Shown here piece by piece: positions 1 through 22,996 of a stretch of DNA of 23,527 nt (its first letter is position 1; each line of letters begins with the position of its first letter). This DNA comes from a virus: IMG/VR virus record IMGVR_UViG_3300014720_000188, positions 1 through 23,527 of that record; one strand, written 5' to 3'. A program made the translations under genes and the position numbers. The notes beneath the pieces were generated by a model. It worked only from the letters and a program-made list of their open reading frames with translations, was not told the DNA's origin and did no database searches.

Positions 1-456
1 TGGTTTTTCTTTAATGTCTGCTTTTTGATAATCTGGAAATTCATTTTTTAAAATATTTAGACAGAATTCTAATGTTTCTATATCTATTCCATCCATTATT
101 AATCTATTTGCCTCCATCCAACCATCTCCAACAATCATGCCCATAACAAAAGATAGGTTTTCTGAAATTAAATTCTGACTTGAAAAATTTTGTGCAGCCT
201 TAATAGCAACTAAATCACCAACTTTAAGATTTTTTTTTAAAACCCCACCACGTTTTGTCATGATTGGATGATTATGTGTACCAGTTATTGAAAAACCAAA
301 TTTTGTTTTAATAGAGATAGTATCTCTAATTCCATTGTCATATACATTGGTTGCAGTTTCAATACCGTTCAGTGTTGAAACGTTGTCTCCAATTTCTATA
401 TCACAAATCTTTTTTATTCCCATATCAGTATATATTATAGCATCTTTTGTTAAACA
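1..456 (-). other. Intein N-terminal half with LAGLIDADG endonuclease signature, inside terL
   Basis: Seen: immediately after the terminase motif TFDRWQ the frame continues with Cys461 (CLTKDAIIYT), the expected first residue of a class 1 intein, then an N1-block pattern ICDIEIGD. GFSITGTHNHPIM follows about 65 residues later and matches splicing block B (TxxH, with the GTHNHP core). LKVGDLVAIK comes next, then FVMGMIVGDGWM (nt about 150-115), which resembles the first LAGLIDADG helix of a homing endonuclease. Known: a Hint fold plus a LAGLIDADG domain is the standard full-length intein. Inferred: excision would rejoin Q460 to a Ser/Thr/Cys, restoring the common terminase DRWQS motif. The second LAGLIDADG motif and the C-terminal HN junction should lie beyond position 1. 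Confidence 0.88.
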
Positions 457-1836
457 CTGCCATCTGTCAAACGTAACAATGCCAAGATTCATTCCCATTC
501 TTCTAAGATTAATAATCCAGTTCTTTACTTCTGATAAGTCTACTGGTCCTTCTTTTTTTGGTTCCCACCAAGCAATAGCATCGACAATGACAACGGGAAC
601 AATCTGTTCATAGTTATTGAATGCCTGAATCTTTACCCATTTATCTACATGGCTAATTGCAACAGCACACTTATCATGTCTTTGAGCAAGGTCTGCATGA
701 ACATAATAAATTTTTTCATTATCTATTCTAAATGATGGATCGAATCTTCTAAAGGTATCTAAAGGATTACGAATAGATAATGCCTTTTCAATCTTATCCC
801 GCTGCTTGAAAAATGCATCACTTGATGTTGTAGGCATACAAGCAAATCTCATCAGGGCATCTGCTGGTTCTTTAAAGAAAGATATCTTAAAGTCTTCGAT
901 GGTTCGTGTAGGATTCATATCCCAAGTTGGACGTTTAAGTGCAAATACTCGTGGGTATTTATATGACTTAATATGATCTTCTTCCCATTCAATTTGAAAC
1001 ATATTTGATGGGTCATCCTCTGGAAGATCTGGATTCATTACATATGTGTGATGACGCAGTATTGTTTCTTTCTCAGCAATTGCATCCTCATACGCATGTT
1101 GAATAAAGTCATCTTTGTATCTTGGGAAAGAAAGCAAAACAACTTTACCATAATCTGGAAAACGTGAATCAACAGATCCACGGAATGCTTTGTAAGTATT
1201 TGATGCTGTCTTTGCCTGCTCATTACCACCACTTGTTTGTGTTGCAAAGCCAGAGATCTCGTCTAACACAGCTAGGAACAGGTTTAGACCTTCATGGCTC
1301 TCTCGTTCAGAGTGTCCAGAATACACACTAATAGACTTATTAAAGGCAACACTGTTTACTTTTGGGTCATACTTTCCAGCAAACCAAGGGGAGTTCTTAA
1401 TCTTTCTTACAAAGTTATCAAAGAATACGTTCTTTGCCTGTTCAGCATTGATAGCAATATTGATTAGATCAATAGCATCATCTGGTGGTTTACCATAATA
1501 ACGTGCAGGATCTTTAAGACATAAAAGTTTATATACAATATAGGCGCAACCAATAGTAGATGTATGATCTTTTCCTGATCCCTTGCCACATTGGACAATG
1601 ATTTCTACCTTTGTATATTTACGATAATGTTCCTTACCTTTTTCCTCTCCATAAACTCTAATCAAATCTTCTTCTCTATAGATCTGACTCATGCACTCAA
1701 CAAGAATATACTGATTTTCAGAAAGAACTGGTTGATTTAAATAGTCTGGAGATGTAACAAAGGTTACTACATCAACGGGTTCTTCATCAAAGGGATTATC
1801 ATCAAGAGCCTCAATGATATCTGATAGATCAAGCAT
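1..1836 (-). CDS. terL: Terminase large subunit (N-terminal ATPase and part of nuclease), interrupted by an intein; runs off window
   Basis: The frame is open from the ATG at 1836 to the window edge (612 codons). The protein is the motor ATPase/nuclease that packages phage DNA. Seen: Walker A-like CGKGSGKD (residues 83-90), Walker B LFLAVLDE (186-193), motif III LLSFPR (234-239), then the start of the RNase H-like nuclease with HADLAQRHD (acidic D382), VIVDAIAWWE (D419) and TFDRWQ (D457). Right after Q460 the terminase sequence stops and an intein begins at C461. The P-loop has Asp rather than Ser/Thr after GK, which is unusual. The start codon overlaps the end of the small-subunit gene by 8 nt, the classic TerS-TerL pairing; only a weak GAGG lies upstream, so translational coupling is likely. 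The rest of the intein and the C-terminal extein lie outside the window. Identity is secure from the motif order. Confidence 0.93.
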   Translation of the reverse strand, partial: MLDLSDIIEALDDNPFDEEPVDVVTFVTSPDYLNQPVLSENQYILVECMSQIYREEDLIRVYGEEKGKEHYRKYTKVEIIVQCGKGSGKDHTSTIGCAYIVYKLLCLKDPARYYGKPPDDAIDLINIAINAEQAKNVFFDNFVRKIKNSPWFAGKYDPKVNSVAFNKSISVYSGHSERESHEGLNLFLAVLDEISGFATQTSGGNEQAKTASNTYKAFRGSVDSRFPDYGKVVLLSFPRYKDDFIQHAYEDAIAEKETILRHHTYVMNPDLPEDDPSNMFQIEWEEDHIKSYKYPRVFALKRPTWDMNPTRTIEDFKISFFKEPADALMRFACMPTTSSDAFFKQRDKIEKALSIRNPLDTFRRFDPSFRIDNEKIYYVHADLAQRHDKCAVAISHVDKWVKIQAFNNYEQIVPVVIVDAIAWWEPKKEGPVDLSEVKNWIINLRRMGMNLGIVTFDRWQCLTKDAIIYTDMGIKKICDIEIGDNVSTLNGIETATNVYDNGIRDTISIKTKFGFSITGTHNHPIMTKRGGVLKKNLKVGDLVAIKAAQNFSSQNLISENLSFVMGMIVGDGWMEANRLIMDGIDIETLEFCLNILKNEFPDYQKADIKEKP

Positions 1837-2356
1837 CGACTATCAAAACCTCGTCTGTCTTTGTTATTTCAGATAGCCTACTAATAATCTCTGTACGAAC
1901 AGTTGGATATTTAGATGCAATGTCTTTAAGAATATTAATTAAGATCTCATGCTTTCTTTCCATTGCTGCCATTTCTTCTGCAATTTCTTTATTGTCTAGT
2001 AGCCCTGCACGATGAAGCATGTCAAGTCTTTTTGCTTCAATGTCAGCAATAAGTTTAATTGCAGTTGTCTTTGCACCAAGGTTATTTGTTTGATCTGCAG
2101 AATCAATAACTTCATATGATTTCTTAATAAGTCCTGAATAATGTTGGTCTGCTCCAGCTAAAGCCTCTCTTGCACGATTATGAATAGCTTGATTATTTGC
2201 TACCATTCCTCGCCAGTCATTAAGTAATGACATAACTCTAGTCCGTGGAATATCAAGATCTTTAGAAATTTGTGATGGATCAGATCCCTTGAGATATTCT
2301 GATGCTACAAGGTTTACCTGATCAAGGTGTTTTACGAGATCTGCGTCTTTTGACAT
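1829..2356 (-). CDS. terS: Terminase small subunit
   Basis: 175 residues. Terminase small subunits recognise the packaging site on concatemeric DNA and hand it to the large subunit. The N-terminus holds a helix-turn-helix at about residues 24-50 (DPSQISKDLDIPRTRVMSLL), followed by a long, charged helical region (about 60-160) suited to oligomerisation. This matches the usual layout and length of 150-190 residues. The assignment rests as much on position, since its last 8 nt overlap the start of terL, as on the HTH. The ATG at 2356 has an AGAGGA Shine-Dalgarno a few bases upstream. The gene begins inside the last 35 nt of the preceding 95-codon gene. I see no truncation. Confidence 0.82.
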   Translation of the reverse strand: MSKDADLVKHLDQVNLVASEYLKGSDPSQISKDLDIPRTRVMSLLNDWRGMVANNQAIHNRAREALAGADQHYSGLIKKSYEVIDSADQTNNLGAKTTAIKLIADIEAKRLDMLHRAGLLDNKEIAEEMAAMERKHEILINILKDIASKYPTVRTEIISRLSEITKTDEVLIVDA

Positions 2357-2609
2357 TATTCCTCTTTATAATTGGCTTCACACGTTCGATGCGAAATGAT
2401 CGCATACCACATGATACACCACGTTCTAGCTCTATGCAGTCAATCCATGTAGCACCTGTTGCTGGATTTGTGACATGAGATATAAATTTAAACTCAGTGC
2501 CATGAATGCCACGGATCTTAATCTTATCTCCTGTAGAAACAGTTTTATTATCTATTTCTACACTACCTTCACGAATAAATGGGTCTACAGAATTAAACTT
2601 TTTACGCAT
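2322..2609 (-). CDS. Small basic protein of unknown function preceding terS
   Basis: 95 residues with an ATG at 2609 preceded by AGAGGA and a 6-nt spacer. The middle (about residues 15-75) reads as a small beta-barrel: IDNKTVSTGDKIKIRG, then EFKFISHVTNP and TWIDCIELER, with regular hydrophobic/polar alternation. The C-terminus is strongly basic (IKRNNVKRRRSRKTP), which suggests nucleic-acid contact. Similar short genes sit just before terminase genes in actinophages, but I cannot name a function. The 3' end overlaps terS by 35 nt in another frame, so translation of the two is probably coupled. Confidence 0.7.
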   Translation of the reverse strand: MRKKFNSVDPFIREGSVEIDNKTVSTGDKIKIRGIHGTEFKFISHVTNPATGATWIDCIELERGVSCGMRSFRIERVKPIIKRNNVKRRRSRKTP

Positions 2610-2643
2610 AAATCTTCCTCTCGTAGCTCCTAACTACATTCTA

Positions 2644-2886
2644 TCAATCATAAGTAATCCTGTCAAGGATTTTCTTTTGTAGTCTTTCAATTTCATCATT
2701 GATATAGAAGATTGCCTTACGAAGATCTTCAATTTGAGTATCTTCATTCTTCAATCCTGCACGCCATAAATATTTAATTGCATTTCCAATATTATAGTTT
2801 CTATGACGAACAATCTCTATGCACTCAACTCCAGACGGGTCGCTGGTGTAATGCTTAGGATGATTTACCATATCAATATATTCCAC
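2644..2886 (-). CDS. DUF3310 family protein (phage nucleotide-metabolism-associated kinase-like family)
   Basis: 80 residues. The family signature is clear: VNHPKHYTS at the N-terminus, GVECIEIVR in the middle, then NIGNAIKYLWRAGLK and a helical end DLRKAIFYINDEIERL. DUF3310 (SaV-like) proteins are widespread in phages of Gram-positive and other hosts; they sit among replication and nucleotide genes and have no settled biochemical role. The reading frame opens with GTG at 2886, whose first bases overlap the TAG of the upstream 49-residue HTH gene, with AAGGA about 8 nt upstream. An alternative ATG is six codons in at 2871, directly before the conserved VNHPKHY. Confidence 0.85.
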   Translation of the reverse strand: MEYIDMVNHPKHYTSDPSGVECIEIVRHRNYNIGNAIKYLWRAGLKNEDTQIEDLRKAIFYINDEIERLQKKILDRITYD

Positions 2887-3035
2887 TATCTCGTTCCTTT
2901 CAGGTCAAATTTTCTCAAGTATATATAAATTGTTTGCAAAGAGCAATTGCATTCTTTAGCAATTTCTTCTGGAGTCTTTCTGTCCATAATGTATCTTTTT
3001 GTTAGCCAAGTTTTTGACTGATAAAGCTTACTCAT
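2886..3035 (-). CDS. 49-residue helix-turn-helix protein
   Basis: This gene fills the apparent gap between the RuvC-like and DUF3310 genes. The ATG at 3035 overlaps the end of the RuvC-like gene by 8 nt and the TAG at 2886-2888 touches the GTG of the DUF3310 gene, so it fits exactly into the overlapping operon. The product begins MSKLYQSKTW and continues with KTPEEIAKECNCSLQTIYIYL (about residues 20-40, with the last Leu at 40), a compact HTH in which TPEEIAKECN forms helix 1 and the turn, and SLQTIYIYLRKF is the recognition helix. It resembles the short sigma-factor/Homeodomain-like HTH proteins common in phages. A DNA-binding role is inferred; its target is unknown. Confidence 0.75.
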   Translation of the reverse strand: MSKLYQSKTWLTKRYIMDRKTPEEIAKECNCSLQTIYIYLRKFDLKGTR

Positions 3036-3627
3036 TATTACCGTCCTCAAATATAGAGTTCCATCTATCAGAGATGTACCAACCTACACCAATAGCATCT
3101 GCAACATCATCGTCATCTATCTTTACCTTAAATTGTTCATATACAGAATCAATTGTTTTTTGTTTACGAGATTCACGTTCTTTTCCTTTGTACCATGACT
3201 TTGATTTACCTGGAAACTTTCTTTGAAGATCATGTTTTTCACTCTTTGTTAGAAGTCTTGTTCCAATATAGTTTTGCCATTGCATAGGAGTTATTGTTTT
3301 AATTGTTCGTATTCCAGCAACGTAGGCTGCTGAAATAATTGCCCCCTGAACTAGAGAGAGTTGCATAGCAGTTTTTGGTGAATTACTATAAATTGCTGAT
3401 TCAATTACAACTGCATCTGCCCGTAATTCTTTAAAGAATGGGATGCATTTTTTACATGCATCCCCAGCTTTATAAAATACTTCTGTTCCACTAAATCTTA
3501 TCTTGCCATATTTAATAAGTTTACCGTTTACAAAATATGAAAACGCCAATGAATTTGTTGATGCATCAATAGCAATAATTGATGATGGCTTTCCAATACT
3601 TAGTAGTGTTCTTCTAGTGATTGTCAT
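3028..3627 (-). CDS. RuvC-like Holliday-junction resolvase / RNase H-fold nuclease
   Basis: 199 residues from the ATG at 3627 (a TTG two codons upstream at 3633 is an alternative; GGAG lies in front of both). Acidic residues occur in the RuvC order: Asp in SSIIAIDASTNS near the N-terminus (residue 21), Glu in AVVIESAIYS (76), and a C-terminal cluster KIDDDDVADAIGVGWY (about 172-178) where RuvC has its final Asp pair. The middle contains TPMQWQNYIG and a Lys/Arg-rich stretch. RuvC-family proteins resolve four-way junctions; in phages they debranch replicating DNA before packaging. The gene overlaps the upstream zinc-finger gene by 14-20 nt and the downstream HTH gene by 8 nt. Fold assignment is confident; junction specificity is inferred. 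Confidence 0.82.
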   Translation of the reverse strand: MTITRRTLLSIGKPSSIIAIDASTNSLAFSYFVNGKLIKYGKIRFSGTEVFYKAGDACKKCIPFFKELRADAVVIESAIYSNSPKTAMQLSLVQGAIISAAYVAGIRTIKTITPMQWQNYIGTRLLTKSEKHDLQRKFPGKSKSWYKGKERESRKQKTIDSVYEQFKVKIDDDDVADAIGVGWYISDRWNSIFEDGNNE

Positions 3628-3904
3628 AGTCAAAAAACTCCGTTATTTCTTTTATAAAGCTGTTCAATCTTTTTTTATGAATCATGCAGGCATTGCACAT
3701 GGAATCATCATTATAAATACTTAATGACGTTCCACATCCTCCAGCACATATCCTTATCTTGCCCTTGCGTTTTTTTCTTTTTTCAATGAAATAACGTTCC
3801 ATGATCTTCACTTTGCTTGCTTGATCACGGCATTCTACGCTGCAATAAATTTGTTTATTTGTTTTTTTAGTAAACTCTTTATCACACCATTCGCAGAATG
3901 TCAT
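3614..3904 (-). CDS. Double zinc-finger protein of unknown function
   Basis: 96 residues with two separate Cys4 sites. The first is CEWC (residues 4-7) paired with CSVEC (21-25), similar to treble-clef or MYM-type fingers. The second is CAGGC (53-57) paired with CNAC (70-73). A basic linker KRKKRKGKIR joins them and a charged helical tail follows. Zinc fingers of this kind bind nucleic acid or protein; no catalytic residues are apparent. The ATG at 3904 directly follows the TAA of the Cas4-like gene, and the 3' end overlaps the RuvC-like gene. The position between two nucleases suggests an accessory role in DNA processing, which is inference. Confidence 0.7.
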   Translation of the reverse strand: MTFCEWCDKEFTKKTNKQIYCSVECRDQASKVKIMERYFIEKRKKRKGKIRICAGGCGTSLSIYNDDSMCNACMIHKKRLNSFIKEITEFFDYDNH

Positions 3905-4723
3905 TTAGAACAATCCCTTTTCATCCTTTCTTCTAGCGATTTTGATATCGCCCTCAGGAGCAACAAGACATGCATCCCTGAGTGGACATGACATACAGAT
4001 TTTAATTGAGTTATTCTTAAATGGTACTTGTGGTATTGTCTTATTTTCCCATGCAGACCATACCTCTTGCATCCAATCAAATAGATAGTCAACAAAATCG
4101 ACATGTGCCTGATTGATATTTACTGGTATTGCTAGAAGATCATGCGTATTCTTATTTTCATAAAGAATAATTCCATTCTTCTTCTTATATATTTTCATGT
4201 AAATAAGAAGTTGTAGGATGTGATAGGAGCTTGCTGTATTTGTTTTTGCATGTCGCTCAAAGGCATCATTATTACATGTCTTAATTTCTACAATATATTC
4301 TTTCTTTGCCCACTTAATAAATGCATCAACATATCCGAATATCGGGGGACTATCATATGGTGTTGGTTTTTCTTTTTCAACAAGGATTCCAGCATCTTCC
4401 ATAGCCTTTTGAATACGAGCATGGCGATCTGTACCATGATCCATGTTTGTTGTTTCTTTACCCGTACGATACTCAAAGAATGTGTTTCCAGAGAACGCTA
4501 GATACCAGTACCTTGGACATACACCATGATTCCAGACTATTGATGATGGTGCAAATGTTTTCTTTGTTTGAAACTTTGGAACATTATCTTTTCGATACCC
4601 CTCAAAAATTGTATCAATAAGTTCTGAAAAAGATGTATCTTCTTTTGTAACTACTGGCTCATCAAAGATGTCTGGTATTTTAATAGATTTATTAATTATT
4701 TTTCCTAGCAAAGTCTTAGCCAT
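3905..4723 (-). CDS. Cas4-like PD-(D/E)XK exonuclease with predicted Fe-S cluster
   Basis: 272 residues. Seen: CPRYW with Cys69; GTDRHARI (His101); FGYVDAFI with catalytic Asp133; VEIKTC with Glu146 and Lys148; QLLIYM (171-176), the Q-containing motif of RecB-type nucleases; and a C-terminal triplet CMSCPLRDAC (Cys243, 246, 252). One N-terminal Cys plus three C-terminal Cys around a RecB nuclease core is the Cas4/AddB-type iron-sulfur arrangement. Cas4-like proteins degrade DNA ends to leave single strands, consistent with supplying RecA substrates here. No CRISPR array or cas1/cas2 is present, so this is a phage recombination nuclease and not part of a CRISPR locus. AAAGG precedes the ATG at 4723; the previous gene ends 1 nt earlier. 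Confidence 0.85.
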   Translation of the reverse strand: MAKTLLGKIINKSIKIPDIFDEPVVTKEDTSFSELIDTIFEGYRKDNVPKFQTKKTFAPSSIVWNHGVCPRYWYLAFSGNTFFEYRTGKETTNMDHGTDRHARIQKAMEDAGILVEKEKPTPYDSPPIFGYVDAFIKWAKKEYIVEIKTCNNDAFERHAKTNTASSYHILQLLIYMKIYKKKNGIILYENKNTHDLLAIPVNINQAHVDFVDYLFDWMQEVWSAWENKTIPQVPFKNNSIKICMSCPLRDACLVAPEGDIKIARRKDEKGLF

Positions 4724-4724
4724 A

Positions 4725-5039
4725 TTAAGCCTTTACCATATATTTTAGTGTTGCAACAATCTTATCTAGCTCTGCTGCTGCCGTGTAATAAAGATTCTTC
4801 TTTGCACGATTGCTCTTATCAACATTAGCCATCCATGTTGCACACATGGCAAACTTAGCTGCCATTGCTTGTAATCTAACAAGCTCTATAGTTGCAACAC
4901 TCATTGGAATATCTGGTTTTACAATAAGCTTTGCAACAAACTCAAGGGACTTTGTAAGTTCCTTGTCCTCCATAAAATCTGCAATCTTAAAAAGATCTGC
5001 AATATCCTCTAACGTAGTACTCTCATTGTTCTCGCTCAT
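4725..5039 (-). CDS. Small alpha-helical protein of unknown function
   Basis: 104 residues, almost certainly all helical: an acidic N-terminus with LEDIADLFKIADFMEDKEL, a central Ala/Met-rich stretch (RLQAMAAKFAMCATWMA, about residues 55-71) and a Lys/Ala-rich end. I see no catalytic motif, signal peptide or convincing membrane helix; the central stretch is hydrophobic but broken by Lys and Arg. The ATG at 5039 follows AGGGA, and the start overlaps the end of the PD-(D/E)XK gene by 17 nt. It lies between two nuclease genes in an operon with recA, so an accessory recombination role is possible but unsupported. Confidence 0.7.
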   Translation of the reverse strand: MSENNESTTLEDIADLFKIADFMEDKELTKSLEFVAKLIVKPDIPMSVATIELVRLQAMAAKFAMCATWMANVDKSNRAKKNLYYTAAAELDKIVATLKYMVKA

Positions 5040-5331
5040 ATTTATCCCTTATCTCTCTCAACTCTTCAAACTCTGACCACTCTATTATAGCAAGCCTTGT
5101 TTTTTGATGTTCTCCAAGGACAACCATGATTACTGGACTCTTATTTGAATCAACTTTTAATGTATCTGTAACTATCTTTGCCCATACGTCACGATTGATT
5201 GAAAATGACTGACGGTATTCCTTTACATCAACAACATATCGATCAAGACTACCGTCAGCCTTCTTCATATTCCTACCTGAATTTTTATGAGCAGTTGCTC
5301 CGATACGCTTTAGTTCTGAACGTTCAGACAC
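5023..5331 (-). CDS. Small PD-(D/E)XK protein, Hjc-like putative Holliday-junction resolvase
   Basis: 102 residues. The pattern resembles small archaeal and phage resolvases: an N-terminal helix with Glu6 (SERSELKRIG), a Gly/Ser-rich strip HKNSGRN, then SLDRYVVDVKEY giving Asp30, Asp35 and Lys37 as a PD-(D/E)XK core. The ordered helix RDVWAKIVTDTLK comes next, followed by the strand SPVIMVVLGE and RLAIIEWSEFEEL. The start is GTG at 5331 with AGAGGA upstream; the previous TAA ends directly before it. The 3' end overlaps the next gene by 17 nt. Known: the family includes structure-specific endonucleases. Inferred: a second junction- or flap-processing enzyme besides the RuvC-like one. A degenerate, non-catalytic member cannot be excluded. 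Confidence 0.6.
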   Translation of the reverse strand: MSERSELKRIGATAHKNSGRNMKKADGSLDRYVVDVKEYRQSFSINRDVWAKIVTDTLKVDSNKSPVIMVVLGEHQKTRLAIIEWSEFEELREIRDKYEREQ

Positions 5332-5514
5332 TTAGTATCCTCTTTTATAGTAAAGACTTACTGTTGAAACATGCTCACAATTCTTGCATTTCCATGTGAC
5401 ATCTAGAGAATCCTTATATACCCTTGATGTATAAGCCTCTTCACCGCACTGCTGACACAAAAATGTGCCCTTCATAATCTCATATCGATTACTCACACGC
5501 TCTGATGAGTTCAT
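5332..5514 (-). CDS. Small zinc-ribbon protein
   Basis: 60 residues from the ATG at 5514, chosen because a perfect AGGAG lies 7 nt upstream; a TTG directly before it would add one residue. CQQC (20-23) and CKNC (43-46) form a zinc ribbon, with beta-prone sequence TSRVYKDS and DVTWK between them and VSTVSLYYKRGY at the end. Such ribbons are typical nucleic-acid-binding modules. The gene starts inside the last 26 nt of recA, so translation should follow recA. No more specific role can be read. Confidence 0.7.
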   Translation of the reverse strand: MNSSERVSNRYEIMKGTFLCQQCGEEAYTSRVYKDSLDVTWKCKNCEHVSTVSLYYKRGY

Positions 5515-6487
5515 CAACCTTCTCCTGATTCTTTCTTAGCCACTCAATAACCTTTGCACGGCCTTGGAAACGCTCCCCAAGGACTGTGTACCAGGCACCG
5601 CTACGTTCAATCTTGCCCTTCATCTCTGCTATATCTACAACCTCAGCAACATTATCTACGCCAAGGTGGTTTGCATCAAAGTAGAAATCATAGGTGCCAT
5701 TGATAAATGCTGGACCAGTTTTATTGAAATCGATATTCCATGTCACTGATCTACCGACCTTCTTTTCAATAAGCTTATCTCCAGAAGCAACCTTATCTTT
5801 GATAGCCTGATTATCTGACTCGCTTGACCATAGTTTGACAACTGTACTAGAGAAGAACTTTACGGCATGTCCACCTGTTGGTTGATGACTAACAAACATC
5901 TGACCAATGTTATTGCGTTGTTGTGAAATCAATACGAGGAGCGTAGGCTTGACTTGATTATTTGCATAGTTAAGCATCTTAACAGCATTTGTCATATCCC
6001 GTGCTTCTGCACCAATCTGTTTTGTATTCTCTAGTTGCTTGAGTTCTGTTGAATCTTTCTCAAAATAAATTGCTGGTAGTAGTGCAGAGATAGAGTCAAC
6101 AATAATCATATCTACTCCTGCTGACATGAGCTGAGTAGCAACATCAACCATTTCATTGACAGTTCTTGAGCCAACGTAGATGAGTGAGTCAACATCTACT
6201 CCAAGTCTTTTTGCCCATGCAGGATCAAACGATTGCTCTGCATCAATCCATGCACATATCTTTCCTTCTTTTTGAGCAATACCAATCATTTGTAGACAGA
6301 AGGATGACTTGCCTGCTGACTTGTTTCCCCAAATAAGAATCTGTCTACCATACGCGAATCCACCATTAAGAGCATCATTAAGTCCGATGCTTGGTGTCTT
6401 TTGCTTGACTACCTCAACTCCACCCCCTGAACTAACGATCTTTCTGATCCTAGGGTCAAGTTGAGATAAAATCTCTTCTATATTCAC
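5489..6487 (-). CDS. recA: RecA recombinase
   Basis: 332 residues. RecA forms filaments on single-stranded DNA, pairs homologous duplexes and hydrolyses ATP. Seen in order: Walker A GNKSAGKS (54-61), WIDAEQSF with the catalytic Glu84, Walker B MIIVDSISALLP (Asp131), and ISQQRNNIGQMF followed by HQPTGGHAVKFFSS (about 188-214), matching the sensor Gln, loop L2 and the GG(N/H)A(L/V)KF signature. The C-terminal domain EVVDIAEMKGKIERSGAWY is also typical. The protein is slightly shorter than bacterial RecA (about 350) because the acidic tail is short. The start is GTG at 6487, overlapping the TGA of the mazG-like gene (GTGA), with GGGAAG upstream. Its neighbours are replication and nuclease genes, so recombination-dependent replication or repair is likely. 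Confidence 0.96.
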   Translation of the reverse strand: MNIEEILSQLDPRIRKIVSSGGGVEVVKQKTPSIGLNDALNGGFAYGRQILIWGNKSAGKSSFCLQMIGIAQKEGKICAWIDAEQSFDPAWAKRLGVDVDSLIYVGSRTVNEMVDVATQLMSAGVDMIIVDSISALLPAIYFEKDSTELKQLENTKQIGAEARDMTNAVKMLNYANNQVKPTLLVLISQQRNNIGQMFVSHQPTGGHAVKFFSSTVVKLWSSESDNQAIKDKVASGDKLIEKKVGRSVTWNIDFNKTGPAFINGTYDFYFDANHLGVDNVAEVVDIAEMKGKIERSGAWYTVLGERFQGRAKVIEWLRKNQEKVDELIRACE

Positions 6488-6810
6488 GCTTGCTTCCCAT
6501 GCATATATGGACGGGTTTTATTATAGTCTGCCTTTTGTTTCATTACTTCCTCAATGTTTCCTGTGAATACTCCATCATGGTTCATTCCAGCCCATAGATC
6601 AAGCACACGAATAATAACGTCTGCCATTTCTAATACAACTTTCTCTGGATCTTCACCCTTAGATATTACCTCACTGATCTCAGATACCTCTGAATGAATC
6701 ATTGCAATCTGCTTGAGATAAAAGTTGGTGCCATTATTATCGTTCCAGAATCCCTTTCTCATTGCATTAGAATGCACAGAATAAGCGAACTCTGCTAGGT
6801 TAACTGCCAT
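6484..6810 (-). CDS. MazG-like nucleoside triphosphate pyrophosphohydrolase
   Basis: 108 residues, an all-helical NTP-PPase. The metal-binding signature is ExxE followed by ExxD: EVSE (Glu41, Glu44) and EMAD (Glu61, Asp64), in IHSEVSEISEVIS and VVLEMADVIIRVLDL. A C-terminal helix MKQKADYNKTRPY follows, as in phage MazG and dUTPase/dCTPase-like relatives. These enzymes convert (d)NTP to (d)NMP plus pyrophosphate. In phages they shape the nucleotide pool or lower alarmones; the substrate cannot be read here. The start overlaps the 3' end of dnaE by 11 nt and the stop overlaps the recA start, so it belongs to the same polycistronic message. Confidence 0.85.
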   Translation of the reverse strand: MAVNLAEFAYSVHSNAMRKGFWNDNNGTNFYLKQIAMIHSEVSEISEVISKGEDPEKVVLEMADVIIRVLDLWAGMNHDGVFTGNIEEVMKQKADYNKTRPYMHGKQA

Positions 6811-9800
6811 TATTTATATCCTCCAATGCTATTGTTTTATCATCAACCTTTTTAGTAACTAGCTTTACTGTCTTTCCTTCTTCACAAAGCATATATGCTC
6901 GTGGATAAATTACTGGAAACGCTACAATATTATATAGGCTTCTATTGCAATCTGCAGCAATAAGATATCCCATCTTCTTTCCAGCCTTCGTAATCTTCTT
7001 TCTAAGATGAATAACATAATACTCATCTTGATCTATGGGTAGACTTCTCAGATTCATAAACTTAATAAGTGGATCATTCTTATACGAATCAAGATCATCA
7101 ACTGGAATGGCTTTATTGATTGTATTGCCACCCACCAATATGATATACGTCTTACCTGTTTCAATTAGGGAATCTTCTACGTCAAAGAATCCTGTCATTC
7201 CACTCTTATCCATGAAATCGATACGCGACCAACCTGTAGATCGCTTTATCTTCTTTGCAACTGCTAAGAAGATAAATGTACCTGACTCATCAAAGTCATT
7301 AATATCGCTAACGTATGCGTAGTAATGAGCAGGGATCTCAAAATTGAACTCTGGAAGATTTAAATACTCATATAGATTAGATTTAACCTTTTCCTCATCC
7401 CTGGGATTATCTGGGAATGTTACTGCTCCGATAGCATTCATGGCATCAAGGGCACGACTATTAATTCCACTGCCCTTGGTGAAAACATACTCTCGTACTT
7501 CTTTATATGTATAGAATGGTCGTCGCTCTAGGATCTTTGATGATATACCATCTGAAACCCACTTGATAGCATTCAATCCAAATCGAATACCCTTACCCTC
7601 AATCTTGAAATCTGGATCAGACTCATTGATATGGGGAAGTTTTAGACTAATGCCCATACGCTTTGCTTCAATAAGATATCCCGTACGAGCATCCTTATCT
7701 TTCTCATTCTTGAGAAGAGAGAACATGTACTCAATTGGATAATGATACTTGATCCATGCAGTCCAATATGAAAGCATAGAATAAGCAACAGCATGACTCT
7801 TATTAAATGAGTATCCAGCATGAGCCTCAAAGTCATTCCAAAGTTTCTTGGCTTCTTGTGGACTAATATATGCAGAGGCATTGGTTACGAATTTCTCTCT
7901 GAACTGATCAAACTCTCGTGCATCCTTTTTCTTACCGATGATCTTTCGTACCTTATCTGCCTCAGACATTGACATGCCGCCCAGCAGAACGCAAGCCTGC
8001 ATGACTTGCTCCTGATAAAGAACGCATCCGTAAGTATCAGACAAGGCATTTCTCATAACACTGTGGATATATGTAATATCTTTCTTGCCATTCTTTCTTG
8101 CAACATATTCTCCACCGATAGTATTCATGGCACCAGGACGAACGAGTGCATTAGAGGCTACAAGTTCGTCAAAGTTTCTTACGCCCATCTTAACGAGAAG
8201 ATTAGTATAAGGCGTTGCTTCACACTGGAAAACACCCTTAGTATGTCCATCAGATAGCATTCTATATACATTCTTATCATCAAGGGGGATGGTTTGTAGA
8301 TCTATCTTCTTATGATGACGCTCCTCAATAATATCTAGTGCGTCTGATAGAACTGTAAGTGTCTTTAGTCCTAGAGCATCAATCTTGATTAGACCAATGT
8401 CTGCTACTTCTTCCATGTCAAGGGCAACTACAGGAATTCTTTCCTTTGATCCCGTTGGAAGTCTAGTCTCCATTGGAGCATACTTATAGATGTCATCCTT
8501 AGAAGTCACAACACCAGCGGCATGGATACCTGTACCGCGAATGCGACCACGCAATTGATCTCCATAGACAAGTACTTCTGGATACTTCTCCCTGAACCAT
8601 TTAGTAGATGATGAGTTACAGAATTCATCCCATGTATCTGCAAGCTTTGTTATTCTATTTACATCATTCAAGGGTACATTGAATACCCTGGAAACGTCAC
8701 GAAGAACAACCTTATCTCTGAACTGTAGGAATGTAGCGATTGATGCAACATTCTTATACTGTTCTTCTAGATATGCCTTGACAGACTCACGATGAACGTC
8801 TGCAATATCGGTATCAATATCTGGAAAGTCATTACGATCTGGATTGATAAACCTAAAGAAAAGTAGATCATATTTAATTGGATCAATCTCTGTGATACCC
8901 AATAGATAACAAAGAAGTGACCCAGCAGCAGAGCCTCGTCCTGGGCCTACAAGAATCTTATTACTCTTTGCCCAAGCAATCATATTACGAACAACAAGGA
9001 AGTATGGAGCAAAATTCTTTTCTTTAATGATCTCCAACTCTTCTTCTAGACGAGCAACATATTGCTCATCAGTATGCAGATTCTTGGCTGTAAGCATAGA
9101 AAATGCATACTTTCGTATACTTTCATCGGGATTCTTGTGATCTACGGGAAGAAGATTAAGATTCCGTGGAATAAAATATTCCTCTACCTTGTTAGCAATC
9201 TCTAAAGTATTTGAATAAATAGACTCATCCTGAGTATATGAAGACATTGCCTCATGCATCTCATCATATGAGAGAAGATGAATATCAAACTTATTAAAAC
9301 TCATTGGGCGATCTTTACCATACAGATAGTCTAGTCTTTCCATAGCATCTTCATACTTGGCAGACTTATCATACGTTGCACCCTTCTCAATCTTGGCATG
9401 AGTATTGAGAATCAGCATGAGTTCCTGAATAACCTTTTGTTCTTTAGTGCAATGATGACAGTCTGGGGTAGTGATGCACTTTACCCCAAGTTCTGATGCA
9501 AGCGTTAATAACTTTTCATTCATGCCTTCAACATTGTGTGGCATAACCTCAATGTAAAAGTCATCACCGAATCTATCCTTGAACCACTTGACATGCATCT
9601 TTGCTGCTGCATATTCTTCTAGTTCGATAGCCTTATTGATCAATCCGCTCATACATGCAGAAGAAACAATGATATCTGCTCCGTACCTATCAAGCGTATC
9701 AAAGTCTATTCGTGGCTTCTTATAGAAGCCCTCTGTCCACGCGATCTGATTCATCTTATTTAGATTCTCAAGTCCATTACTATTTTTAGCAAGTAAGATG

Positions 9801-10084
9801 ATATGGTTATATACAAGGTCTAGAGGAGTTGTTCTCTCTGCCCTGTCTCGTCTATCAAATCGATCAAGCGTGATATACGCCTCTACGCCAAGAATTGGCT
9901 TGATACCATTGTCATTGCAGGCACGATAAAAGCGCCTGTGTGCCGATAGGCTTCCATGATCTGTACATGCGATTGCTGGCATACCTAGTGATGCCGCACG
10001 AGCCGCATACTCTTCTGGTGTTGCTACTCCGTCCATCAGAGATCCAATGTCTGTATGAACATGAAGTGGAGCGTAGTTAGTCAA
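6800..10084 (-). CDS. dnaE: DNA polymerase III alpha subunit (DnaE-type replicase)
   Basis: 1094 residues, a family C replicative polymerase. I chose the TTG at 10084 because AGAGAGGA lies 4 nt upstream and homology should begin at NYAPLHVHTD; the frame is open 19 codons further up to a GTG at 10141, but that would run through a GC hairpin and add a non-conserved peptide. Seen: PHP domain HVHTDIG (His8, His10), CTDHGSL, GVEAYI and TPDCHHC; polymerase motifs GPGRGSAAGSLLCYLLG (about 380-396), NDFPDIDTDIAD with catalytic Asp422/Asp424, IDALGLKTLT with Asp569, and YGCVLYQEQVM; an HhH-like region; and an OB fold around 940-1010. Length is close to the bacterial norm (about 1160). The retained PHP histidines suggest possible intrinsic proofreading. 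No clamp loader or clamp gene is in view. Confidence 0.96.
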   Translation of the reverse strand: MTNYAPLHVHTDIGSLMDGVATPEEYAARAASLGMPAIACTDHGSLSAHRRFYRACNDNGIKPILGVEAYITLDRFDRRDRAERTTPLDLVYNHIILLAKNSNGLENLNKMNQIAWTEGFYKKPRIDFDTLDRYGADIIVSSACMSGLINKAIELEEYAAAKMHVKWFKDRFGDDFYIEVMPHNVEGMNEKLLTLASELGVKCITTPDCHHCTKEQKVIQELMLILNTHAKIEKGATYDKSAKYEDAMERLDYLYGKDRPMSFNKFDIHLLSYDEMHEAMSSYTQDESIYSNTLEIANKVEEYFIPRNLNLLPVDHKNPDESIRKYAFSMLTAKNLHTDEQYVARLEEELEIIKEKNFAPYFLVVRNMIAWAKSNKILVGPGRGSAAGSLLCYLLGITEIDPIKYDLLFFRFINPDRNDFPDIDTDIADVHRESVKAYLEEQYKNVASIATFLQFRDKVVLRDVSRVFNVPLNDVNRITKLADTWDEFCNSSSTKWFREKYPEVLVYGDQLRGRIRGTGIHAAGVVTSKDDIYKYAPMETRLPTGSKERIPVVALDMEEVADIGLIKIDALGLKTLTVLSDALDIIEERHHKKIDLQTIPLDDKNVYRMLSDGHTKGVFQCEATPYTNLLVKMGVRNFDELVASNALVRPGAMNTIGGEYVARKNGKKDITYIHSVMRNALSDTYGCVLYQEQVMQACVLLGGMSMSEADKVRKIIGKKKDAREFDQFREKFVTNASAYISPQEAKKLWNDFEAHAGYSFNKSHAVAYSMLSYWTAWIKYHYPIEYMFSLLKNEKDKDARTGYLIEAKRMGISLKLPHINESDPDFKIEGKGIRFGLNAIKWVSDGISSKILERRPFYTYKEVREYVFTKGSGINSRALDAMNAIGAVTFPDNPRDEEKVKSNLYEYLNLPEFNFEIPAHYYAYVSDINDFDESGTFIFLAVAKKIKRSTGWSRIDFMDKSGMTGFFDVEDSLIETGKTYIILVGGNTINKAIPVDDLDSYKNDPLIKFMNLRSLPIDQDEYYVIHLRKKITKAGKKMGYLIAADCNRSLYNIVAFPVIYPRAYMLCEEGKTVKLVTKKVDDKTIALEDINNGS

Positions 10085-10096
10085 TGTATCCTCTCT
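10082..10096 (-). promoter_or_regulatory. Ribosome binding site and TTG start of dnaE
   Basis: Read on the minus strand, AGAGAGGA (10096-10089), the spacer TACA and then TTG ACT AAC. This strong Shine-Dalgarno picks TTG as the dnaE start. The hairpin at 10107-10138 ends 10 nt upstream of it, close enough to influence ribosome access. Confidence 0.7.
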
Positions 10097-10106
10097 AAGT
10101 AATGTA

Positions 10107-10138
10107 GTGGGGGGGCGTCGTGAGAAGCGCCCCCCCAC
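10107..10138 (-). repeat. Perfect 11-bp GC-rich inverted repeat (hairpin) between the SSB-like and dnaE genes
   Basis: Arms at 10107-10117 and 10128-10138 are exactly complementary (GTG6CG type: GTGGGGGGGCG against CGCCCCCCCAC), with a 10-nt loop at 10118-10127. Seven consecutive G pair with seven C. It begins 7 nt after the SSB-like stop codon and ends 10 nt before the dnaE Shine-Dalgarno. No run of T follows on the minus strand (the next bases are TACATTACTTAG), so it is not a standard intrinsic terminator. A role in 3'-end protection of the upstream message, partial attenuation, or limiting dnaE expression is inferred. Confidence 0.85.
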
Positions 10139-10145
10139 CACGCTT

Positions 10146-10799
10146 TTACCACTCTACGTTAGCAGACGTGGTTGGATTATCGTATCCAAGGTAGAATGCC
10201 TCTTGTTCAGCATAAGGAACATGACGAACAGCGTTCTCCAATTGGAATGGCTCATACTTAGACCAATCAAATGCATCATCATCAGATGGGCCAGGAATAA
10301 GAACATAGTTTGTCTCTGTGCCCTTGCCATTACGCTTAAGCTTCCAAACCATATTGCTAATGCCAGGGGACTCAATGGCATACTCACGAAGAGTATTGAA
10401 TGTAGCAGACTTTGCTACGCCAGTGCTCCAAACTGCGACATATGGATCTTCCATGCCATCATCAACGAGTACATTGATATAGAATCGCAGACGACCACCC
10501 CAGCCTGCCTTGGGATCCTTGCGGTGCATCTCCTCTGCCCAATCACGCCCCTCTGATTCAACCGTACAAACAGCCTTACGCTTGAAGTCCTTGGGATTCT
10601 GATGCTCACGCACAACAATTGCTAGACCACGCTCAGGGTCATAGTGCTTTGAATCTTCATCAAGCTCATTCATAAAACGAATCTTGATGCTTTGACCGTC
10701 CTCAATCTTGAGCCAACGGACACGGGGACCGCTTGACTCTGGACGAGATGACTTATTGATATTCTCATCGATATTCTTTAGACCTTTATAAATAGACAT
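10146..10799 (-). CDS. Probable single-stranded DNA-binding protein
   Basis: 217 residues. The N-terminus (SSGPRVRWLKIEDGQSIKIRFMNEL, cut to its core VRWLKIEDGQSIKIRF at about 26-41) looks like the first strands of an OB-type barrel. Strands FYINVLVDDG, PYVAVWSTG and a central basic segment RKAVCTVESEGRDWAEE follow. The C-terminal third carries an acidic stretch PSDDDAFDWSKYEPF. Proteins with this layout and position, between primase and polymerase, are annotated as ssDNA-binding proteins in several large phages; gp32-type similarity is distant and I see no zinc site. AGGAGA lies just before the ATG at 10799. A GC-rich hairpin follows the stop codon directly. Assignment rests partly on context. 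Confidence 0.6.
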   Translation of the reverse strand: MSIYKGLKNIDENINKSSRPESSGPRVRWLKIEDGQSIKIRFMNELDEDSKHYDPERGLAIVVREHQNPKDFKRKAVCTVESEGRDWAEEMHRKDPKAGWGGRLRFYINVLVDDGMEDPYVAVWSTGVAKSATFNTLREYAIESPGISNMVWKLKRNGKGTETNYVLIPGPSDDDAFDWSKYEPFQLENAVRHVPYAEQEAFYLGYDNPTTSANVEW

Positions 10800-10807
10800 A
10801 TATTCTC

Positions 10808-11758
10808 CTAATTTAGTATATATTCAATCATGTTATCAAATTTATATATAAGTTGCGATAGTTGTTCTTCATCTAAATCTGAAACATCTTTATATTCATT
10901 TGGTATTGTGCCGCTGACTACGATGTTTCCAAGCGCTTCTTCCATCTTCCTTTGCATTGCAAGACCCGCTTCATCATTGTCTGGCAATAATATTATACTT
11001 GTAAAGTACTTTTTTAGCAACTGTATTTGTTTACCTGATACAGTAGATCCAAGAGTAGCAACCGCATATCGGCCAAGCTGTTCGATTCTAATGGCATCAA
11101 AGGATGACTCTACAACAAACACTTGGCTTGCTGCCTTTGTTCTTTGTATATTGAACATAGTCTTACTCTTGGGTAGACCAGGGGTATTCTGAAAACTCTT
11201 ACCCTCAACAGACCTACCAACCATTCCTACACATAATCCATCAGGAGAAAAGATGGGAATAGTAATCATATCCCTTTTCTCTGAGTATCCGATTAGATAC
11301 TTCTCTGCACTCTGCTTAGTAATTCCACGACCCTTAAGGTATTGTGCTGCCCTGGAAGAATCAAGCAGGGATTCATTAAGCCTCTTTACTGTATCTAAAT
11401 CAAACTCAATGAAATCTTGTGGCTTGTTTAACATTCCATAGATCTCAGATGCTATATCAACATCTACCTTCTTTGAATGAATAAGACGAATAGCTTCGAA
11501 GTATGATCGATTACTGCAATGCATAACAAACTCAACAAAATTCTTTGCTTCACGACATGAGAAACAAAAGAACTGACCAGTAAATTTAGACACTTCTCCA
11601 GCAGGAGTTCTAAAGTTTGAATGATATGGGCAAAAGATTATATAGTCGCTGTCAATCTCATTTTCAATATCTATACCGCAGGATAGAATGACCCGTTTAA
11701 CTTGGTCTGGTGAATAGTATTCACTATTGGCTTGTTCTTGTCTATTCCTGAAAGACAT
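10808..11758 (-). CDS. DnaG-type DNA primase
   Basis: 316 residues. The N-terminal CHC2 zinc domain is visible as CPYH (Cys43, His46) and CFSC (Cys65, Cys68). The core TOPRIM domain has VFVVESSFDAIR with Glu217, GSTVSGKQ, and IILLPDNDEAG with Asp260 and Asp262. The linker region contains YLKGRGITKQSAEKYLIGYS and TIPIFSPDGLCVGMVGRSV, both typical of DnaG. It makes RNA primers and normally works with DnaB, whose gene is two genes upstream. It is shorter than bacterial DnaG (about 600) because it lacks the C-terminal helicase-binding domain, as usual in phages. The ATG at 11758 follows GGAAGGAAG. The first 29 codons overlap the 3' end of the 106-codon gene. Confidence 0.93.
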   Translation of the reverse strand: MSFRNRQEQANSEYYSPDQVKRVILSCGIDIENEIDSDYIIFCPYHSNFRTPAGEVSKFTGQFFCFSCREAKNFVEFVMHCSNRSYFEAIRLIHSKKVDVDIASEIYGMLNKPQDFIEFDLDTVKRLNESLLDSSRAAQYLKGRGITKQSAEKYLIGYSEKRDMITIPIFSPDGLCVGMVGRSVEGKSFQNTPGLPKSKTMFNIQRTKAASQVFVVESSFDAIRIEQLGRYAVATLGSTVSGKQIQLLKKYFTSIILLPDNDEAGLAMQRKMEEALGNIVVSGTIPNEYKDVSDLDEEQLSQLIYKFDNMIEYILN

Positions 11759-11991
11759 ATAGCCTGCTTCCTTCCAACGTATACTCCATAAACTGATAGT
11801 AAGAAATTAAATGTTTTTCCATTATATGAGATTGTGAAATCATAGTCAATGTCATATCTTCTAACATACCCCTTTGATCTCATTGATTTTTCTAATATAG
11901 ATATATATTTTTCTTTCATGCGACCAATAATTGACTCGTCATAGATTTCCCCTTCAATATGAAAACGATGTATTTTTTTATGGGAAATCAT
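11671..11991 (-). CDS. Unknown 106-residue protein, apparently leaderless
   Basis: 106 residues, no recognised family. The N-terminus is charged and helical (YDESIIGRMKEKYISILEKS), followed by strands DIDYDFTISYNGKTFNFLLS and VYVGRKQAICLSG, giving an alpha-beta impression. No cysteine pairs, signal peptide or membrane segment. The ATG at 11991 has no Shine-Dalgarno; instead TATAAT ends 6 nt before it, so the transcript probably starts at the A of the ATG. The 3' end overlaps the primase gene by 88 nt, a long overlap for this genome. I believe it is real because of its protein-like composition and placement between helicase and primase. Function unknown. Confidence 0.6.
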   Translation of the reverse strand: MISHKKIHRFHIEGEIYDESIIGRMKEKYISILEKSMRSKGYVRRYDIDYDFTISYNGKTFNFLLSVYGVYVGRKQAICLSGIDKNKPIVNTIHQTKLNGSFYPAV

Positions 11992-12027
11992 ATATTAATT
12001 ATACTAGCGTTTACATGTCATCTTCAA
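11991..12027 (-). promoter_or_regulatory. Candidate promoter for the primase/ssb/dnaE/recA segment (leaderless start)
   Basis: On the minus strand TTGAAG (12027-12022), an 18-nt spacer, then TATAAT (12003-11998). The expected start site, 7 nt past the -10 box, is position 11991, the A of the ATG of the 106-codon gene. That gene has no Shine-Dalgarno. The -10 match is perfect and the -35 is 4 of 6. TATAAT occurs often by chance in DNA this AT-rich, so placement and the missing ribosome site are the main support. Confidence 0.45.
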
Positions 12028-13234
12028 AATCTTTATAAACGAATCTACCGCTGTCAAAATCAGTCATTACTAGAAACTCTCCAAGCATTCCATTTCTATT
12101 CTTGCGAAATGCACATTCAAGAATCTCACTGTTTGCTGCTCGCCCTAAAGCAAGAACCCAGTCAGCATCATATGAAAGCTGCTTTGACCATGCCACCTGA
12201 CCTAGCGTAGGAACACTATGCATATCGCTAGCATCATCTGGTGTCGCGGAAGCAATGGCAACAATAGGAATCTGTTCAGAAATAGCAAGAATCTTCAATT
12301 CACGAGAAATATTCTTGATCTTGACAACTTCATTGTCATTCTTTGTATTTGGCTGCATAAGCTGAATATAGTCAACAAATACAATGTCTGGCTTATACTG
12401 ATCGATCTTTCCTCGTAGGACAGCAGGAGTTACATCTCCAATGCCATCATTCGAAATGATTTGAAATGATGGTTTACCGTCAAAGTACTGAGATCCCCAA
12501 CGATGAAATTCTTCTACGTCAATATCACCAGAACTCATCTTGCGATGAGAGAATCTACCGTTAGCCATAATTGTGTAGGCACGATTGCGTACTTCATTTT
12601 CTGTCATTTCTAGCGACACAAAAAGAGGACGACGACGATTAATCCAGGCTTGTACAGCAAGATACAATGCAAGCCATGATTTACCTATTGCTGGGTAGGC
12701 AAGTAGAATTCCAAACTGACCGCCAGTAATGCCAGAAGGTAAATAATTATCAAACCCAGCCAAACCCGTTTTGATCCCATATTCGCCCTTTTCAGTAAGT
12801 TCTCGCAGATGCTTGAAATATGATACAGCATCATCGATGTCGATAACGTCAATATCACGAATATTTGCCGTGCTTTTCTTTAGTTCTGCTGTTTGACTAA
12901 TGATAGTATTAAGTGCATCAATGGGCTTACCGCTTTGAAGATCTCCAGCACTAGACTTAAGAATGGCTCGTAACGTGTCATTGAGATAGTTTTCTCTCAA
13001 TTCGTCAAGATGATGCTTTGTTGTTCCAACTTCTTTCAATGGCTCAAAGTCACGAAACTTCTCAATAACAAGATGTGTTGGTGGAACAGTGCCATTTTCT
13101 GATGAATAGTCCTTGATAAATAGCCAGATATCCTTATGAGTCTTAAATAGACCATCTACATTTGCTTGCATAAGCACATGAACTTGCTTATCAAGCAGTA
13201 CCGCACTAATTACCCTATCTTCTACACTAGCCAT
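12011..13234 (-). CDS. Replicative DNA helicase, DnaB family
   Basis: 407 residues. DnaB helicases are hexameric motors that unwind the fork 5'-3' on the lagging strand. Seen: an N-terminal helical domain (SVEDRVISAVLLDKQ onward), GIKTGLAGFDNYLP, Walker A AYPAIGKS (179-186, with Ala as the first residue), LFVSLEMTENEVRNR (the SLEM motif), Walker B IVFVDYIQLM (Asp288), and a C-terminal region LGQVAWSKQLSYDADWVLAL with FRKNRNGMLGEF, matching the arginine-finger part of the family. The ATG overlaps the upstream gene by 8 nt. Genes for primase and polymerase follow. It is a little shorter than bacterial DnaB (about 450-470). Confidence 0.94.
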   Translation of the reverse strand: MASVEDRVISAVLLDKQVHVLMQANVDGLFKTHKDIWLFIKDYSSENGTVPPTHLVIEKFRDFEPLKEVGTTKHHLDELRENYLNDTLRAILKSSAGDLQSGKPIDALNTIISQTAELKKSTANIRDIDVIDIDDAVSYFKHLRELTEKGEYGIKTGLAGFDNYLPSGITGGQFGILLAYPAIGKSWLALYLAVQAWINRRRPLFVSLEMTENEVRNRAYTIMANGRFSHRKMSSGDIDVEEFHRWGSQYFDGKPSFQIISNDGIGDVTPAVLRGKIDQYKPDIVFVDYIQLMQPNTKNDNEVVKIKNISRELKILAISEQIPIVAIASATPDDASDMHSVPTLGQVAWSKQLSYDADWVLALGRAANSEILECAFRKNRNGMLGEFLVMTDFDSGRFVYKDFEDDM

Positions 13235-13541
13235 TTAACCACGCCTTCGCTTTCTGTCGATTGATGCGCCTTATTCTATCATCGATCTCCTTGTCTTTTC
13301 TAGCAGCAATAAGTTTTTCTACATTAGATACATACCAGTTCCAGTCATGCCCAGTTTCCTTGACATAAAAATACCAGTCTACTGCATCCTTGCATTCATC
13401 AAAGCCAAAGGAATCAATAATGTCTCTAGCAGCCCACTTTGCTGTGTTTTTATTGATAAGTGGAATGCTACCGTAATGACTTTTATATGATGATGAGAAA
13501 TATGATATGAGTGAGTGACCAAGCTTTATAACGTCACTCAT
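13227..13541 (-). CDS. Unknown 104-residue protein upstream of the helicase (possible helicase loader)
   Basis: 104 residues, predicted helical, with a Trp/Tyr-rich core KDAVDWYFYVKETGHDWNWYV (about residues 51-70) and a basic tail DRIRRINRQKAKAWLNG. No catalytic motif. Small helical proteins in front of phage DnaB genes are often helicase loaders (for example G39P of phage SPP1), and size and position agree, but I cannot claim sequence similarity. AAGGAG precedes the ATG at 13541. The start overlaps the stop of the 67-codon gene, and the end overlaps the dnaB start, so the three are translationally linked. Confidence 0.7.
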   Translation of the reverse strand: MSDVIKLGHSLISYFSSSYKSHYGSIPLINKNTAKWAARDIIDSFGFDECKDAVDWYFYVKETGHDWNWYVSNVEKLIAARKDKEIDDRIRRINRQKAKAWLNG

Positions 13542-13737
13542 TCATCTCCTTCTTAGCCTCGTCAATCTTGCTCACTACCTTGCTCTCAACAAAGGCATAG
13601 ACACGATCCATTGCGGCATCTACAGTCTCGCCATCACGAACAAAGTCTGTGCATCCAAGATCGACACGAAGACTCTGGAAGTTACCAATATTTAATGTAT
13701 AACCAAGATTTGCTGAAACAGTTGTCTTATCTGACAT
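13534..13737 (-). CDS. Unknown 67-residue conserved-looking phage protein
   Basis: 67 residues from the ATG at 13737, preceded by AGGAG with a 4-nt spacer. An in-frame ATG at 13785 would add 16 residues but lacks a ribosome site and lies within the previous gene, so I prefer the inner one. The sequence TVSANLGYTLNIGNFQSLRV (about residues 6-25) reads as a beta hairpin, then DLGCTDFVRDGETVDAAMDR and a C-terminal helix ending KIDEAKKEMNE. A similar pattern with N(L/I)GNF/YxSxRV occurs in small phage proteins encoded near replication genes, without a known function that I can state. Confidence 0.75.
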   Translation of the reverse strand: MSDKTTVSANLGYTLNIGNFQSLRVDLGCTDFVRDGETVDAAMDRVYAFVESKVVSKIDEAKKEMNE

Positions 13738-13744
13738 TTCTCTC

Positions 13745-14284
13745 CTAATATGTCTGCTCTTCCCAAACGGGAATAAATCTTCCATCTTTTGTTTTTGTAT
13801 AGAGCACTAGCTCTTCGCCCATCTTAGCACGCAACTCTTTCTCAGTCAACATCGAATTGTTAACAATGCGTCCGTCTTTACGAGGACGCCCCTTATGAAT
13901 TCCTTGCATGACTTTGTGTATCTCAAAAATATCATCTTCTGAATAATAAGATTTTCTTTTAAAAGATCGTTCACCATTGGCAAGTGTACCCAGAGGCGGC
14001 TTAATGAGTCCACTTTTCCAGTATAACTTTAGTGCTTCCCTGGATCTATTAAGAATCCTTCCAGCATCAATGGTTGTATATGCCCTTTTTCTATGTTTTT
14101 TAAAGTCAGAGAACAACATTGTCTGTTCTTTTTGATCAGTAATATTATAGAAATAAATAATGTTGCTAGCCCTATTTGCAGAAATAACCCGAACTAATTT
14201 ATTATTTAAAAAGAATATGGTATTGCTGGGTTTTACAGGCCGTTGTATGTCTTTAGCAGCTTTGTCTCTATCCTGTGCAACCAT
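13745..14284 (-). CDS. MerR-like helix-turn-helix DNA-binding protein with an AT-hook-like motif
   Basis: 179 residues. Residues about 69-125 read as a winged HTH of the MerR/excisionase type: YTTIDAGRILNRSREALKLY, then WKSGLIKPPLGTLANGERSF and KSYYSEDDIFEIHKVM. After it comes KGRPRKDGR (131-139), an AT-hook-like GRPRK core. The N-terminal 60 residues form a small beta-rich domain (FFLNNKLVRVISANR). It probably binds DNA as a regulator or origin-binding initiator; it is the second gene of the replication operon, immediately after the promoter at 14427-14462. GGGGAG lies 8 nt before the ATG at 14284, and the first 52 nt overlap the zinc-ribbon gene. Confidence 0.8.
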   Translation of the reverse strand: MVAQDRDKAAKDIQRPVKPSNTIFFLNNKLVRVISANRASNIIYFYNITDQKEQTMLFSDFKKHRKRAYTTIDAGRILNRSREALKLYWKSGLIKPPLGTLANGERSFKRKSYYSEDDIFEIHKVMQGIHKGRPRKDGRIVNNSMLTEKELRAKMGEELVLYTKTKDGRFIPVWEEQTY

Positions 14285-14426: not shown

Positions 14427-14462
14427 GGGGATTATTATAGCATTATGTAGTGCCAATTGCAA
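14427..14462 (-). promoter_or_regulatory. Candidate promoter of the replication operon
   Basis: On the minus strand TTGCAA (14462-14457), a 17-nt spacer, then TATAAT (14439-14434). The expected start is near 14427, 3 nt before the ATG of the zinc-ribbon gene. It sits exactly at the tail/replication boundary, and the stop codon of the last tail gene lies in its spacer. The -10 is perfect, the -35 4 of 6, the spacing ideal. Support is from motif, position and the missing ribosome site downstream. Confidence 0.6.
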
Positions 14463-14877: not shown

Positions 14878-14885
14878 AATTTATC

Positions 14886-14922
14886 CCTCTTTATTATACC
14901 AAGTTTACTGTTCCAGTATCAA
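14886..14922 (-). promoter_or_regulatory. Weak candidate promoter before the last tail-module gene
   Basis: Minus strand TTGATA (14922-14917), an 18-nt spacer, TATAAT (14898-14893), expected start near 14886. The hexamer matches are good (5 of 6 and 6 of 6), but the -10 box overlaps the stop codon of the previous gene. The following gene has a normal AGAGGGA site that such a start would truncate, so it may be chance. Confidence 0.25.
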
Positions 14923-16748: not shown

Positions 16749-16757
16749 TATTATCCC

Positions 16758-22995: not shown

Positions 22996-22996
22996 A

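Follow-up and report, generated by a model that had tools for sequence, protein, structure and literature searches.

An endonuclease-bearing intein in the nuclease domain of the phage terminase TerL

The window analysed here is the whole of the linear virus record IMGVR_UViG_3300014720_000188 (23,527 bases), and it begins inside an intein that interrupts the gene of the terminase TerL. This is very probably an intein of class 1 that contains a two-motif LAGLIDADG endonuclease, is located in the nuclease domain of TerL, and would excise itself from the protein and home into intein-free genes; splicing and cleavage are read here from the residues involved. The element has the anatomy of such an intein, occupies one exact site which is empty in relatives, and has recently been transferred between divergent terminases.

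The intein fragment and its complete copy

On the minus strand of the window, the reading frame starts at 1836, passes through TFDRWQ into the intein, and reaches base 1 without meeting a stop. The TerL N-extein (457 to 1836, minus strand) has 460 aa, comprises the ATPase domain and the beginning of the nuclease domain, and ends in TFDRWQ (457 to 474, minus strand). It is 87% identical to its counterpart in an intein-free relative, L002, and 55-56% identical to terminases of the Streptomyces phages Phredrick, Moab and Gilson; a relative of these three, Streptomyces phage Forrest, is classified in Stanwilliamsviridae. From 456 onward on the minus strand, the sequence after TFDRWQ reads CLTKDAIIYT..., CLTKDAIIYTDMGIKKI... 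and provides the N-terminal 152 residues of the intein (1 to 456, minus strand), which is cut off in the window because the window is the entire record. Cys1, the N-terminal splice nucleophile (454 to 456, minus strand), is an in-frame TGT directly after the CAG (Gln) of FDRWQ, with the Q/C border at window 457/456, and is invariant among aligned inteins. Block B, GTHNHP (265 to 282, minus strand), has the TxxH form T60-H-N-H63 in which T60 and H63 are invariant in intein alignment A2, and the same alignment has G106 and D111 of the first LAGLIDADG motif, VMGMIVGDG (121 to 147, minus strand), as invariant residues. The NCBIfam model intein_Nterm (TIGR01445) scores 26.9 bits on residues 1-67 compared to a curated cut-off of 24.5, and several intein-containing equivalogs of NCBIfam also match (top 3e-11). 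Pfam matches of the fragment alone are below threshold (Hint_2 with E 0.00098, Intein_splicing with E 0.026). The sequence-only reading had seen a Cys, blocks A and B and a LAGLIDADG helix directly after TFDRWQ, and both the single open frame and the TIGR01445 score agree with it. It had also proposed that the DRWQ/S site carries an intein with LAGLIDADG endonuclease, for which a second LAGLIDADG motif, a C-terminal HN before Ser, Thr or Cys and a terminase C-extein were to be expected.

These last three features lie outside the record of the window and were found in an independent contig that belongs to a different phage. Scanning IMG/VR with the 152-aa window fragment gave one relative, the viral contig IMGVR_UViG_3300042197_000813 (L082, also present as L083), and no IMG/VR contigs with the same intein were found beyond it. 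Its frame of 941 aa consists of 461 aa of terminase, a 350-aa intein (positions 1917-2966 of L082) at the same insertion site as in the window, and 130 aa of terminase. The L082 intein contains two LAGLIDADG motifs with their acidic residues, FVMGMIVGDG and FISGLFEAEG. The window holds only the first of them; the second, FISGLFEAEGSI, is seen only in L082. The intein terminates in HSFLANAIVTHN, with the HN end, and the next residue is the +1 Ser of the C-extein SFDIQRDL. TIGR01445, TIGR01443 for the C-terminal splice block (25.7 bits, cut-off 15.6), Pfam Intein_splicing (2.4e-15) and LAGLIDADG_3 (4.9e-6; 27.1 bits, cut-off 22.5) all score above their cut-offs. Removal of the intein leaves a contiguous TerL of 591 aa, and the complete uninterrupted TerLs (n=165) have 586-603 aa. 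For structure search, a profile was made of the L082 intein and four phage inteins; it matches solved endonuclease-bearing inteins and LAGLIDADG enzymes (1dq3 with 7.6e-21, PI-PkoII with 2.6e-16, PI-SceI and I-DmoI). The AlphaFold model of the intein had a mean pLDDT of 34 and was left out of use. The proposed intein at the DRWQ/S site is thus borne out by the anatomy of L082 and by the profile scores.

The two copies of the intein are identical at 449 of the 456 bases that can be compared (98.5%). Four of the seven differences are silent, and the others give three amino-acid changes, two of which are in block B (W71G and I74K). These two are close together in the window (235-246, minus strand), next to a long stretch of T and some 240 bases before the record ends, and a Trp at intein position 71 recurs in several splicing inteins. 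The changes may weaken splicing of the window copy or may be sequence errors near the record end. It could then be argued that the window element is decaying or impaired in splicing, or that the contig is misjoined at the border between terminase and intein, given that the record ends inside the element and that two of the three changes, W71G included, fall in block B. We consider this very unlikely. The frame is open throughout with no stop and no frameshift, the border is exactly Q/C as in the independent L082, and most of the base differences are the silent ones. The copy in the window is presumably as complete as that of L082, from which its second motif and its C-terminal junction are assumed.

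The insertion site and its intact counterparts

The intein is inserted after residue 460, three residues after an invariant Asp (D457), between the Gln and the Ser of FDRWQ/SFDIQ. In 25 TerLs, D382 and F456-D457-R458-W459-Q460 are invariant and D529 is nearly invariant. Their invariance and spacing, and what is known of TerL nucleases, make D382, D457 and D529 the probable catalytic acids, the Asp of TFDRWQ being that of nuclease motif II. The domain was assigned on a predicted model of the intact L002 TerL, whose mean pLDDT is 45.8 as a whole and about 70-84 in several blocks within residues 370-480. In fold comparison, residues 352-546 of this TerL ranked phage G20c highest (Z 11.0; the G20c nuclease 5m1k with rmsd 3.2 over 144 residues), followed by HK97 (10.6), P74-26 (10.2) and T4 gp17 (10.1). 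The predicted RNase H fold of residues 352-546 is clear, and in the model, with core pLDDT about 70-84, this TerL nuclease fold encloses the insertion. RuvC-type folds rank next and are close behind (Z 9.4-9.8), so that the identity as a terminase rests on the ranking together with homology. Searching the PDB with a TerL sequence profile gave no terminase match, and the nuclease assignment therefore rests on the fold comparison and the conserved acids. That the element sits beside a probable catalytic Asp of the nuclease, as had been suspected from the window, is consistent with residue invariance in relatives and with the fold comparison.

Nearly all of the first 80 TerL relatives that we fetched have FDRWQ-S(F/Y)D uninterrupted, and one relative with FDRWNSFD (L026) is uninterrupted at the site as well. 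A DNA pattern for FDRWQ/SFD gave at least 120 further loci. In total, at least 197 of the fetched loci have intact FDRWQ/SFD sites, a count in which some contigs are possibly present twice, and 145 of the sequences are distinct. Scanning with a DNA pattern for V[TS]FDRWQC gave a match only in the L082 contig, and a tblastn search of the fetched loci with an intact TerL showed an interruption only in L082 (and its duplicate). Among isolate phages, no insertion at the site was present in the 60 listed of 361 matching records, and a single-sequence scan of genome contigs gave no candidate source of the intein among bacteria or archaea. The intein at the FDRWQ/S site is a rare element.

In the mechanism that we propose, a precursor of about 940 aa would be translated, an N-S shift would take place at Cys1 and be followed by transfer to Ser+1, with blocks B and F as helpers, and cyclisation of Asn350 with ligation of the exteins would release a terminase of about 590 aa. 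The endonuclease would cut the intein-free terL of co-infecting relatives, and repair would then copy the intein into the cut gene. We infer all of these chemical steps from conserved residues. It had also been suggested that the intein acts as a late switch, i.e. that it is kept as a regulator and that packaging awaits conditional splicing. The nuclease can indeed function only after splicing, and regulatory roles of this sort have been suggested for terminase inteins (PMC5050341). However, about 200 related loci do not have the intein, nearly all relatives doing without it, its pattern is that of a recently moved element, and no sequence feature for conditional control or other regulatory element was found; this part of the sequence-only reading is not upheld, and we regard a late switch as highly improbable. 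A related and equally doubtful idea is that unspliced TerL is a motor or assembly subunit unable to cut DNA, with the speed of splicing setting concatemer cutting and the start of packaging. It stems from the position of the intein, which disrupts the active site of the nuclease but not the ATPase. The reading that we prefer remains that of a self-excising and homing element.

Transfer between divergent terminases

The N-exteins of the window and of L082 are identical at 1031 of 1387 aligned columns (74%), compared to 98.5% for the intein. At four-fold degenerate sites, 50 of 51 are identical in the intein and 68 of 123 in the extein (Fisher p 2e-9, sites not fully independent). In a maximum-likelihood tree of TerL, the window groups with the intein-free L002, L003 and L009 (support 100/96), and L004, L005 and L008 join this group next (98/94) to the exclusion of L082. 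Given the well-supported branches, the intein state must have changed twice; the long branch of L082 makes its exact placement less sure. These sequence comparisons are most simply explained by a recent arrival of one element in two divergent terminases, as expected from homing, and the earlier proposal of a homing element thereby gains support from both the identity contrast and the tree. An old intein that came to both phages by vertical descent and disappeared from the intervening lineages is scarcely credible. The two hosts are of one TerL family and have the exact site in common, but vertical descent would give similar synonymous divergence in the two parts of the same genes, which is contradicted by four-fold identities of 98% in the intein vs 55% in the exteins. 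Immediately before the insertion, the last 10 codons of the window and L082 are alike at 26 of 30 bases, and the intein-free comparisons at 20-23 of 30, too few bases to indicate co-conversion. Regarding co-conversion, no excess likeness between the window and L082 was seen further upstream of the insertion. The window and L082 constitute a natural pair, with a near-identical intein in terminases that are 74% alike in DNA, and would suit measuring the target tolerance of the endonuclease.

Related inteins and neighbouring genes

A survey of mycobacteriophages (Kelley et al. 2016, PMC5050341) lists terminase inteins TerL1-a to -e, TerL6-f and Pham3880-g, at seven sites that are all in the N-terminal ATPase domain; those tested were splicing competent, and two cut the intein-free terL of related phages (PMC5050341). 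The present element is likewise in a phage terminase, but its insertion after residue 460, within the domain 352-546, corresponds to none of the sites a-g and lies in the C-terminal nuclease domain. The TerL inteins of Pseudomonas phage Lu11 and Erwinia phage pEa_SNUABM_7 differ in interrupting the P-loop of the ATPase part (GQR/C...HN/SGKS), and that of Dulem virus 41 differs in being in the ATPase domain (...HN/TGGS). The metagenomic terminase inteins GOS-TerL and AceL-TerL have class 1 chemistry, are split in trans and use a +1 Cys (PMC11766414), whereas the intein here is contiguous, has an endonuclease and uses a +1 Ser. The closest full-length matches from isolate phages are Staphylococcus-type phage helicase inteins, e.g. 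that of Mammaliicoccus phage MSShimriz1 (27% identity, E 2e-19). These also bear LAGLIDADG, but their host protein is a DNA helicase and they occur in another phage group. A Hint domain or homing endonuclease devoid of splicing function, e.g. a bacterial intein-like domain, could be suggested by the best Pfam matches of the window fragment (Hint_2 and the sub-threshold Intein_splicing) but has next to no chance of being the explanation, since in L082 all class 1 splicing residues and the +1 Ser are present, and the C-extein is intact and would give a TerL of normal length on rejoining. The element is a real endonuclease-bearing intein, of an ordinary kind and with ordinary intein behaviour. 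Its site in the TerL nuclease domain is apparently new with respect to the papers covered here, mainly openly accessible ones. Surveyed phage inteins of this protein lie in the ATPase domain, and the present element adds an insertion in the nuclease domain; the general understanding of intein function is unchanged.

Beyond TerL, the window has its tail-side genes (a minor tail protein and a tape-measure-like end) at 14443-23518 on the minus strand, and a replication block comes next on that strand. The remaining part (1-14284, minus strand) encodes a DnaB-like helicase, a primase, a DNA polymerase III alpha subunit with a PHP domain, RecA, and nucleases of RuvC-like and Cas4-like type, with the terminase after them. 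With tail genes, replication block and terminase in this order on one strand, the replication genes are located between the tail and packaging genes. The polymerase (6800-10141, minus strand) is a phage-encoded alpha subunit of bacterial type with PHP, NTPase, finger and HHH domains and is free of inteins. Directly upstream of TerL, in the window and in relatives, is a gene of unknown function, phrog_9507 (1829 to 2356, minus strand), which by its position is the probable small terminase subunit. In L082 its place is occupied by a free-standing endonuclease VII/HNH gene (1-537, plus strand; Pfam Endonuclease_7, 7.8e-20), which has 4 bases in common with the start of TerL. An HNH gene likewise immediately precedes the terminase in Streptomyces phage Forrest, and the HNH gene beside TerL may represent a second mobile endonuclease next to the genes for packaging.
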